From assembly GCA_002683135.1 (NCBI GenBank), contig NYSS01000005.1, positions 104,834 to 168,833 of the forward strand: a DNA stretch of 64,000 bases, written 5' to 3'. Positions within the stretch are counted from its first letter, which is position 1, and the number at the start of each line of letters is the position of its first letter. Both the position numbers and the translations under genes were made by a program. Positions 60,417 through 64,000 of this stretch are shown piece by piece. The stretch comes from Planctomycetota bacterium (lineage in GTDB: Bacteria; Planctomycetota; GCA-002687715). The notes below the pieces were generated by a model. The model saw only the letters and a program-made list of their open reading frames with translations, was not told the DNA's origin and did not search any database.

Positions 60417-61475
60417 ATGAAAGACGCGCCACACAACCTGACTGCGCGTGACCGCATGGTCCGGGCGGCCTCCCGCCAGCCGGTTGACGGCCCTCCGGTT
60501 TGGATTATGCGCCAGGCGGGCCGCTACCTTCCGGAGTACCACGAGATCCGCCAACTTGGCACGTTCATGGAGACGTGTCGGCACTCGGATCGGGCGGCCG
60601 AGATCACTTGTCAGCCGATCCGGCGCTTTGGGATGGACGCGGCTGTGGTCTTCTCGGACATCCTCGTGCCCGCCGAAGCCATGGGTATGGACGTCTCCTT
60701 TGAGGAGGGCAAGGGGCCGAAGCTGGGGCCTGCGTTGCGCAGCCGGGCAGATATCGAGCGGTTGCACGCGTTCGATCCTGAAGAATCAACGGGCTTTCTG
60801 GGCGACGCGATCCGCAAGGTGCGGGCGGAGCTCGGAGAAGACCGGGCGATCATTGGGTTCTGTGGCGCCCCGTTCACCACCGCGTCCTACATGATCGAGG
60901 GTGGGAGCTCGCGCAACTTTGAGCACACGAAGGCGATGCTCCACGGCTCCCCCGAGGCCTTCCGAGAGTTGCTGGAGCGCATTGTCGATGCGCTCGTTCC
61001 GTATCTCGGTATGCAGGTGGAGGCGGGAGCCGACGTGCTGCAGGTCTTCGACTCGTGGGGGGGGGCGCTCTCCGCGGCGACCTATACGGAGATGTTGCGT
61101 GCGCCGATGGAGCGGCTGATCTGCTCCGCGAAGGCGCTGAACGTCCCCGTGATCGTGTACGTCAACGGGGGCGGACACCTGCTCGAGCTGCTCGCCGACC
61201 TGGGCCCAGATTGTGTTTCGATTGATTGGCGTGTAGATCCCGCGGACGCGCGCGCGCGGGTCGGCGACCGGGTCGCGTTGCAGGGCAACCTCGACCCGTC
61301 GGCCCTCTTTGCGCCGTCGGATGTGGTGGCGCGGCTCACCGGCGAGACCCTGGATGGGTTTGGCCCGGAGCCTGGGTACATCTTCAATCTCGGGAGCGGG
61401 ATCCTGCCGAAGACGCCGGTGGAGTGCGTTCAGGCTGTCGTCGAGACGGTGCGAGCGCGGAGAGGCACGGCGTGA
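60417..61475 (+). CDS. hemE: Uroporphyrinogen decarboxylase
   Basis: PPVWIMRQAGRYLPEYHEIR, GFCGAPFTTASYMIEGG, VLQVFDSWGGALS, LQGNLDPSALFAP, FNLGSGILPKTPVE. Confidence 0.97.
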   Translation: MKDAPHNLTARDRMVRAASRQPVDGPPVWIMRQAGRYLPEYHEIRQLGTFMETCRHSDRAAEITCQPIRRFGMDAAVVFSDILVPAEAMGMDVSFEEGKGPKLGPALRSRADIERLHAFDPEESTGFLGDAIRKVRAELGEDRAIIGFCGAPFTTASYMIEGGSSRNFEHTKAMLHGSPEAFRELLERIVDALVPYLGMQVEAGADVLQVFDSWGGALSAATYTEMLRAPMERLICSAKALNVPVIVYVNGGGHLLELLADLGPDCVSIDWRVDPADARARVGDRVALQGNLDPSALFAPSDVVARLTGETLDGFGPEPGYIFNLGSGILPKTPVECVQAVVETVRARRGTA

Positions 61476-62860
61476 GCGCACGGGTGCTCGTCGCTGGAGC
61501 GGGCATCAGCGGCCTGGCCGCCGCGTGGGATCTCATGCGGGCGGGCGTCGACGTAACCGTCATCGAGGCCACGGGTGAAGCTGGCGGGGTCGTGGGCTCC
61601 TGGGATGTGGATGGCTACAGCTTCGAGAATGGGCCCGCCGCCGTGCAGGGCAATGCGCTCGCGTTCCGATCGCTCGTGCAGGACCTCGGGCTCGAGGACC
61701 AGGTCGTAACGGCGTCCGCTGATCACCGCGAGCGGCACCTGTACTACAAGGGGTCCATGAAGAAGCTCCCACGCACGTTTCGGGACTTCTTTGCATCGAA
61801 GCTGTTTACGGCTGGGCAAAAGACGCGCGCCGTAATGGAGCCCTGGGTGCGCGCGGGACGCCCGGATCGCGAGGAGACCGTCGCCGAGTTCTTCGGGCGG
61901 CGGGTCGGGCGCGGGGTCACCATGACCTGGGTCGACGTCATCGTGTCCGGGGTCTATGCCGGCAATCCAAACCGGCTCGGTATCCGCAGCGCGTTTCCCG
62001 ACCTCGCTGATATGGAGGCCGAGCACGGCAGCATTCTCAAGGGGATGAGGAGCCGGGAGCGGGAACGTCGAGACGATGCGGGCCGCGTCGTCCCGTCGCC
62101 GCTGTGGTCTCTGCGTGGCGGGCTTGGCGCCGCCGTCCAGAAGATGGTCGCCGACCTCGGGGATCGCATTCGATACAACTGCAGGGTGACGAATATCGTG
62201 CGGCGGCCGGGGGGCGGTCTTCAGGTTGGGCTGACCTCCGACACCGGCGACGAAGTGGTGGAGCCCGACCGCATGATCCTCGCCGTCAGCGCCGCGACGG
62301 CGGGGATCCTCATTGCTCCGCTTGCGCCGGATGCCGCGGATCTACTGTTCGAGGTCGAGTCCTCTCCCCTCATCGTTGCGCAGGCAGGATTCGATCGCGA
62401 GCAGCTTCCTGGGTTGCCGAAGGGCTACGGCTACCTCGTGCCACGATGCACTCGCTTGCGCACATTGGGTTGGATCTTCGAGTCCCAGCTGTTCCCGGAA
62501 CGCGCGCCCGAGGGCAAGGTCGCCATGTGCGGGTTCCTCGGGGGCATCCTCGACCCGCACGCCATCGACCAGCCAGACGAGGTGACCCGTCACCTGTTGC
62601 TGGGCGAACTGGCTCTCGCCCTTGGGCAGAGAAAGCTCCCGATCCCCGAGGTCTTTCGAATCGTCAGGTGGAAGAACCGCTTGCCCCAGTACAACGTGGG
62701 TCACCTGCGCCGCATGGTCGCCGTTCGGCGGCTGGTGGAGAAGGATGTGCCGGAGGTGGCCCTGGCGGGCAACTGGATCGAGGGCATCACGGTCGACGCT
62801 TGCGTGAAGCGTGGCCGGGAGGCGGCCCAGGAATCGCTCGACGCGCTCCCGGTGGCATGA
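61472..62860 (+). CDS. hemG: Protoporphyrinogen/coproporphyrinogen oxidase (HemG/HemY type)
   Basis: VLVAGAGISGLAAAWDLMRAGVDVTVIEA, DPNRLGIRSAFP-like VYAGNPNRLGIRSAFPDL, ALAGNWIEGITVDACVKRGREAA; GTGA overlap with hemE. Confidence 0.92.
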   Translation: MSARVLVAGAGISGLAAAWDLMRAGVDVTVIEATGEAGGVVGSWDVDGYSFENGPAAVQGNALAFRSLVQDLGLEDQVVTASADHRERHLYYKGSMKKLPRTFRDFFASKLFTAGQKTRAVMEPWVRAGRPDREETVAEFFGRRVGRGVTMTWVDVIVSGVYAGNPNRLGIRSAFPDLADMEAEHGSILKGMRSRERERRDDAGRVVPSPLWSLRGGLGAAVQKMVADLGDRIRYNCRVTNIVRRPGGGLQVGLTSDTGDEVVEPDRMILAVSAATAGILIAPLAPDAADLLFEVESSPLIVAQAGFDREQLPGLPKGYGYLVPRCTRLRTLGWIFESQLFPERAPEGKVAMCGFLGGILDPHAIDQPDEVTRHLLLGELALALGQRKLPIPEVFRIVRWKNRLPQYNVGHLRRMVAVRRLVEKDVPEVALAGNWIEGITVDACVKRGREAAQESLDALPVA

Positions 62861-62864
62861 CGAC

Positions 62865-62939
62865 ATGATCTTGACCGCCCAAGCGCTTACGACCTTGCTC
62901 CCTGTTCTCTACCTGCTCGCTGCGTCGCGGAGGAGCTGA
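62865..62939 (+). pseudogene. Truncated N-terminus of a HemX/CcsA-like membrane protein
   Basis: MILTAQALTTLLPVLYLLAASRRS* resembles the first TM helix of HemX/CcsA-type proteins, then stops at an apparent deletion junction. Confidence 0.5.
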
Positions 62940-63325
62940 TCCGGCGAGGCGCGACTTCGGTTCTGTGGTTGTGCGGCGACCGTGCCTTGCCGACCCTGGG
63001 TGCTCGACTCGCGGGAGCGGGCGCGGAGGTGGCGAAGCTCGTTGTTTACCGCACCGTCCTGCTGTGCCCCGGGGAAGCGGAGATTGATGACGCGCTCCTG
63101 GGGCTCGCTGCGGCCACCTTCACGAGCCCGAGCACCGTCGAGGCGCTGGCCGCTTGCGCGAAGACGCCGTGGCTGGAGGCGGCTCGGGCTTCGCTTCGCT
63201 GCGTCGCCCTCGGGGCGACGACGTCAAGCGCCCTGTCGGCCTCAGGCTTCTCTCGCGTCGTGGTCGCTGCGTCGCCGACGAACGCGGCGCTCGCCGCGGC
63301 GGCCTCAGGTGATCTCGGCCTTTAG
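62921..63325 (+). pseudogene. hemD: C-terminal half of uroporphyrinogen-III synthase (hemD), 5' truncated
   Basis: VAEELIRRGATSVLWLCGDRALPTLGARLAGAGAEVAKLVVYRTVLL...AATFTSPSTVEALAACA...LGATTSSALSASGF matches only the second half of the HemD fold. Confidence 0.75.
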
Positions 63326-63354: not shown

Positions 63355-64000
63355 ATGACCCTCGACCTCACCAACAGCGAGGCCTTGCTCGGTCGCGCTC
63401 GAGAGTTGATCCCCGGAGGCGTGAACAGCCCTGTGCGCGCTTATCGTGGCGTTGGAGGGACGCCCCCCTTTGTGGAGAGGGGCGACGGCTGCCGGGTCGT
63501 CGACGCGGACGGCAATCAGTACGTCGACCTGGTGCTCTCATACGGGCCGCTGATCCTCGGTCACGGACACCCCGACGTGTTGGCTGCGCTCAAGGGAGCG
63601 CTCGAGCGTGGTACGGCGTTCGGTGCTCCGACCGAGTCGGAGATCAACCTCGCGGCTGCGATCTCTGAGCGCGTCCCATCCGTCGAGTGCGTGCGGCTCG
63701 TGAACTCGGGCACTGAAGCCACGATGTCTGCCTTACGCCTGGCGCGGGCAGCGACCGGGAGGAGCGCGTTCGTCAAGTTCAGCGGGTGCTACCACGGACA
63801 CGGTGACGCGTTCCTTGTAAAAGCAGGATCGGGCGCGCTGACGCACGGATCGCCGGACTCGCCGGGGGTCCCCGAGAGCGTCGTCGCTGACACGCTTGTC
63901 GCCGACTACAACGACCTGGCGTCGGTCGCGCGGCTGTTTGAAGAACGGGGAGACGAAATCGCCGCCGTGTTCGTCGAGCCGGTCGCTGGCAACATGGGGT
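63355..64000 (+). CDS. hemL: Glutamate-1-semialdehyde 2,1-aminomutase, truncated by window end
   Basis: [83 protein letters not shown]. Confidence 0.96.

Follow-up and report, generated by a model that had tools for sequence, protein, structure and literature searches.

The window analysed here, 64 kb of a Planctomycetota contig, closes with a group of heme biosynthesis genes on the forward strand. The first, hemE (uroporphyrinogen decarboxylase; 60417..61475), is intact at 352 aa and scores 401 bits over the cut-off of TIGR01464. It is followed by a hemG/hemY-type protoporphyrinogen oxidase gene (61472..62860) that is likewise intact (462 aa; 262 bits over the cut-off of TIGR00562). The last is hemL (glutamate-1-semialdehyde aminomutase; 63355..64000; NF000818/TIGR00713), which extends beyond the window end and is intact at 428 aa. 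The first-pass annotation had hemL following normally, and its coordinates and readings of the whole hemG–hemL interval are correct. The only congener compared is a separately deposited MAG, Planctomycetota bacterium DT_84 (JABSRK01; hereafter G001). Between the window's genome (G000) and G001, HemG is 80% identical and HemL is full length and 90% identical. The dS of the heme genes is about 0.9–1.05, and their dN/dS is 0.062 for hemE, 0.116 for hemG and 0.063 for hemL (the part inside the window), similar to the 0.04–0.16 of the other genes compared. Thus, hemE, hemG and hemL are under strong purifying selection.

Between hemG and hemL, the remains of two genes are joined. The first is a 24-codon open reading frame (62865..62939, forward strand) with the translation MILTAQALTTLLPVLYLLAASRRS*, of which the first ~20 codons correspond to the N-terminus of a HemX/CcsA-like protein and the final codons lie beyond a deletion junction. 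This product has no match in Pfam. Its reading as the start of a HemX/CcsA-type protein rests on alignment to the HemX N-termini of three relatives (G001, G004 and G003), for instance ALTTLLPVLYLLAA in the window, ALMTLLPVLYLLAA in G001 and ALATLLPVLYLIAT in G004. The similarity extends to the DNA level, and the fragment holds the same operon position as HemX of the relatives. It is far from a full-length polytopic HemX/CcsA-like protein, with 24 codons against 276 in G004. The second remnant (62924..63325, forward strand) is the C-terminal half of hemD (uroporphyrinogen-III synthase), 133 codons uninterrupted by a stop. It lies in a different frame from the 24-codon reading frame, one that stays open from 62861 until it meets a stop at 63325. 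As the initial reading had it, the HemD frame begins mid-protein: it covers only positions 105–230 of the 231 of the Pfam profile HEM4 (PF02602; E 9e-19 genome-wide, 1.1e-19 alone), where an intact HemD has both domains. The junction, which had been placed near 62920–62930, maps to ~62919..62928 (a position to which no strand applies) and coincides with the ten-base word GCTGCGTCGC. Two further copies of this word, at 63198 and 63266, lie within the hemD remnant; three copies against 0.8 expected is weakly above chance (5 of 100 shuffles reach three), and the word is thus a possible, weak candidate for microhomology at the junction.

That the half-HemD is a working protein was considered and rejected. 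No ATG or GTG stands in frame ahead of a TTG at 62969, so a normal start is lacking, about half of the profile is gone, and the congener retains just ~20 hemD codons. The remnant shows no sign of decay. It is 46–53% identical to the intact HemD of G004, G003 and G002, which are 41–47% identical among themselves, and in simulations, neutral drift amounting to 0.2 substitutions per site would lower its identity to 33–37%. This comparison was used to judge recency because the persistence of an open frame has little power as a test (the probability of no stop is still 0.14 at 0.5 substitutions per site). With no decay apparent in the remnant, the break in hemD looks recent compared with the divergence of the two species. 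A close-relative search with the HemD remnant as query returned no match.

What has been removed can be read from the relatives. In G004 (isolate ARS1434, of the same family but a different genus), the operon is intact in the order hemE–hemG–hemX (276 aa)–hemA–hemC–hemD. The hemE–hemG–hemX order is the same as in the window, to whose products HemE is 80% and HemG 66% identical, whereas the window lacks the segment from hemX to the middle of hemD; the flank at hemL is common to G001. Genes for hemX, hemA, hemC and hemD are also carried by G003, G002 and G006. Calculated from G004 coordinates, the missing part begins near hemX codon 20 and ends near hemD residue 113, a length of ~3.2 kb. It had been proposed from the window alone that most of hemX and the 5' half of hemD were missing, and probably hemA and hemC with them, and comparison with the relatives' hem operon supports this, as precisely those genes are intact in G004. 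A grouping of hem genes is also found in the hemAXCDBL operon of B. subtilis. There, hemX, hemA, hemC, hemD and hemL are neighbours as in this group, but in another order and with other partners, hemB being on separate contigs in G004, G003 and G002.

The congener G001 has lost the same stretch with other breakpoints. Between its hemG and hemL, ~36 hemX codons run into the ~20 final hemD codons, so that the window retains more of hemD and less of hemX. Because each deletion spares some sequence that the other removed, the two either arose separately or grew in different ways from one smaller ancestral deletion.

Scars of the same kind are present at two further heme loci. Both hemB (PF00490) and hemH (PF00762) are full length in G002, G003, G004 and G006. 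In G000, hemB is absent, with at most a possible few last codons left; at its site, the neighbouring methyltransferase gene is retained, with an Hsp33 gene upstream. In G001, a 38-aa C-terminal scrap of hemB lies directly before a thiopurine-methyltransferase-like gene (annotated by eye), which adjoins hemB in G004 too. Directly upstream of the G001 scrap are ChlI (Mg-chelatase-like) and VWA-domain ChlD-type genes (L105:9363-12102, contig C246); similar genes occur on the hemB contig of G004, and none was found in G000. Of the hemH profile, complete in the four relatives, only positions 224–314 are left in G000 and 264–314 in G001. These tails, still 62–72% identical, lie in syntenic positions, with an amidohydrolase-like gene as common neighbour. 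In G004, a single open frame encodes an N-terminal membrane domain followed by hemH (L159:2753-4318, contig C93), and the two may form a fusion protein of this group. In G000, the start of the membrane domain remains and runs out of frame into the HemH tail, which places the deletion inside that gene. A complete HemH on contig C2 (L106) was set aside: with a GC content of 53% there against 61–67% in other sampled stretches, it is probably foreign and the contig probably a contaminant, which would fit the stated contamination of 5.2%.

The lost genes were sought elsewhere in the G000 assembly (5.07 Mb in 209 contigs, 91.4% complete, 5.2% contaminated), which like G001 is a draft MAG of 90–91% completeness. 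Profile searches of G000 found no hemC, no hemA over the cut-off and no hemD besides the remnant, and likewise no hemC in G001. A hemA candidate on contig C49 (46 positions, 23 bits) was under the cut-off and was rejected. Homolog searches combined HemX, HemA, HemC, HemD, HemN and HemH of the relatives as queries. With the first four, G000 gave only the HemD half and a weak CcsA match on contig C190, and G001 gave only the HemX N-terminus. No ortholog of canonical hemN was found in this search, the HemN-like matches of G000 being HemW and a sub-cut-off radical-SAM protein. The latter HemN-like protein (L109:1203-2540, G000 contig C97; L110, G001 contig C556) is conserved in both species and falls under the hemN and HutW cut-offs. 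The first-pass annotation had left three explanations side by side, namely loss of part of the early pathway, relocation of the genes and collapse of the assembly. Loss is the one favoured; relocation of hemA, hemC or hemD within the assembled genome was not seen by profile or close-homolog searches, and collapse is unlikely for the reasons given below. The extent of the loss is as had been supposed at this operon but wider in the genome, with hemB and hemH gone or broken and canonical hemN not found. Scattered N occur in contigs C30 and C33 of G000 (L107, L140), with none in the window, and suggest mixed-strain consensus or polishing.

The assembly therefore holds no complete heme pathway (hemA, hemB and hemC absent, hemD and hemH truncated), with MAG incompleteness as the caveat, and still encodes heme users. 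Both G000 and G001 have an intact COX1, the heme-copper oxidase, and cytochrome-c assembly proteins (PF01578) are present in G000. In a sample of 41 genomes from the phylum, G000 and G001 are the only ones in which hemE is present and hemC missing, and nine have neither, so within this sample heme genes are usually retained or lost together and this genus is the exception. Three genomes of the same family or order (G005, G008 and G010) have no hemC, no hemE and no close hemG but an intact COX1; G005 belongs to the same genus as G002 and G006, both of which have the pathway.

These observations are probably best explained by a real deletion of ~3.2 kb, together with the deletions at hemB and hemH, in a genus that has lost heme synthesis. 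A chromosomal deletion would have removed hemX from codon ~20 through mid-hemD, taking hemA and hemC with it, and the same gene set would have been lost separately in the sister species. Since the oxidase (in both) and the cytochrome-c assembly proteins (in G000) are retained, the two species are most likely heme auxotrophs, probably dependent on outside heme, and the cells would live on heme or hemoproteins from their neighbours. The intact hemE, hemG and hemL would then be not-yet-decayed remains of a recent loss. The strong purifying selection on these three genes weighs against this explanation, and the survival of the same non-consecutive set in both species is not well predicted by random recent loss.

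Both features would be accounted for if the pathway were complete, with a cluster of hemA, hemB, hemC, hemD and hemH (and hemN) on a plasmid or island outside both bins. Such a cluster would have made the chromosomal copies redundant, so that the same genes could be deleted separately while hemE, hemG and hemL, which it lacks, stayed under purifying selection. Unbinned plasmids are a common failure of MAGs, and hemC occurs on some plasmids of other phyla. However, neither assembly holds a trace of such a cluster by profile or close-homolog search, searches of viral contigs with HemG and HemC found no relative, and the plasmid matches to HemC are all below 60% identity, with no planctomycete among the matches listed. 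Moreover, G005, G008 and G010 keep COX1 without hemC, hemE or a close hemG. This main alternative is considered unlikely, and somewhat less likely still is a takeover by a mobile or extrachromosomal cluster with hemA, hemB, hemC, hemD and hemH, in a pathway split with chromosomal hemE, hemG and hemL.

An assembly artefact, in which the missing segment exists here and was collapsed or dropped, is conceivable in a draft MAG of 209 contigs, some with scattered N, but is very improbable. The congener, which was deposited separately, carries the same loss at other cut points, and two separate assemblies are unlikely to have collapsed differently at one operon; the scars lie at three loci on different contigs, all in heme genes; and the window is free of N, with the missing genes nowhere else as fragments. 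Least probable of all is porphyrin salvage, in which imported uroporphyrinogen or coproporphyrinogen would be processed by HemE and HemG: both are intact and constrained, but the truncated ferrochelatase in both species and the lack of an ortholog of canonical hemN leave no consecutive lower block, and hemL has no role in such a route.

Heme auxotrophy through gene loss is already known. Heme is a growth factor for marine sediment bacteria without the pathway, which has been lost independently in many lineages (PMC11139205, whose main text does not name Planctomycetota), and auxotrophy by gene loss is described in free-living aquatic bacteria (Kim et al., 2021, PNAS, as cited in PMC12381374). 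The genus described here resembles these cases in having lost heme synthesis genes. It differs in that the scars can still be read in both of two sister species, whose breakpoints are not the same, and in that hemE, hemG and hemL are intact; what is unusual is the pair of fresh scars. The usual grounds for calling heme auxotrophy are missing genes, and in a MAG a gene may seem lost when the assembly is simply incomplete. Here, the deletion joints themselves can be seen in two species at matching loci, so that the loss is open to checking by PCR or long reads. The surviving set of hemE, hemG and hemL raises the question of recent decay versus a complementing replicon. For heme auxotrophy as the preferred reading, there is also a practical hint for cultivation: these bacteria may need to be supplied with heme.
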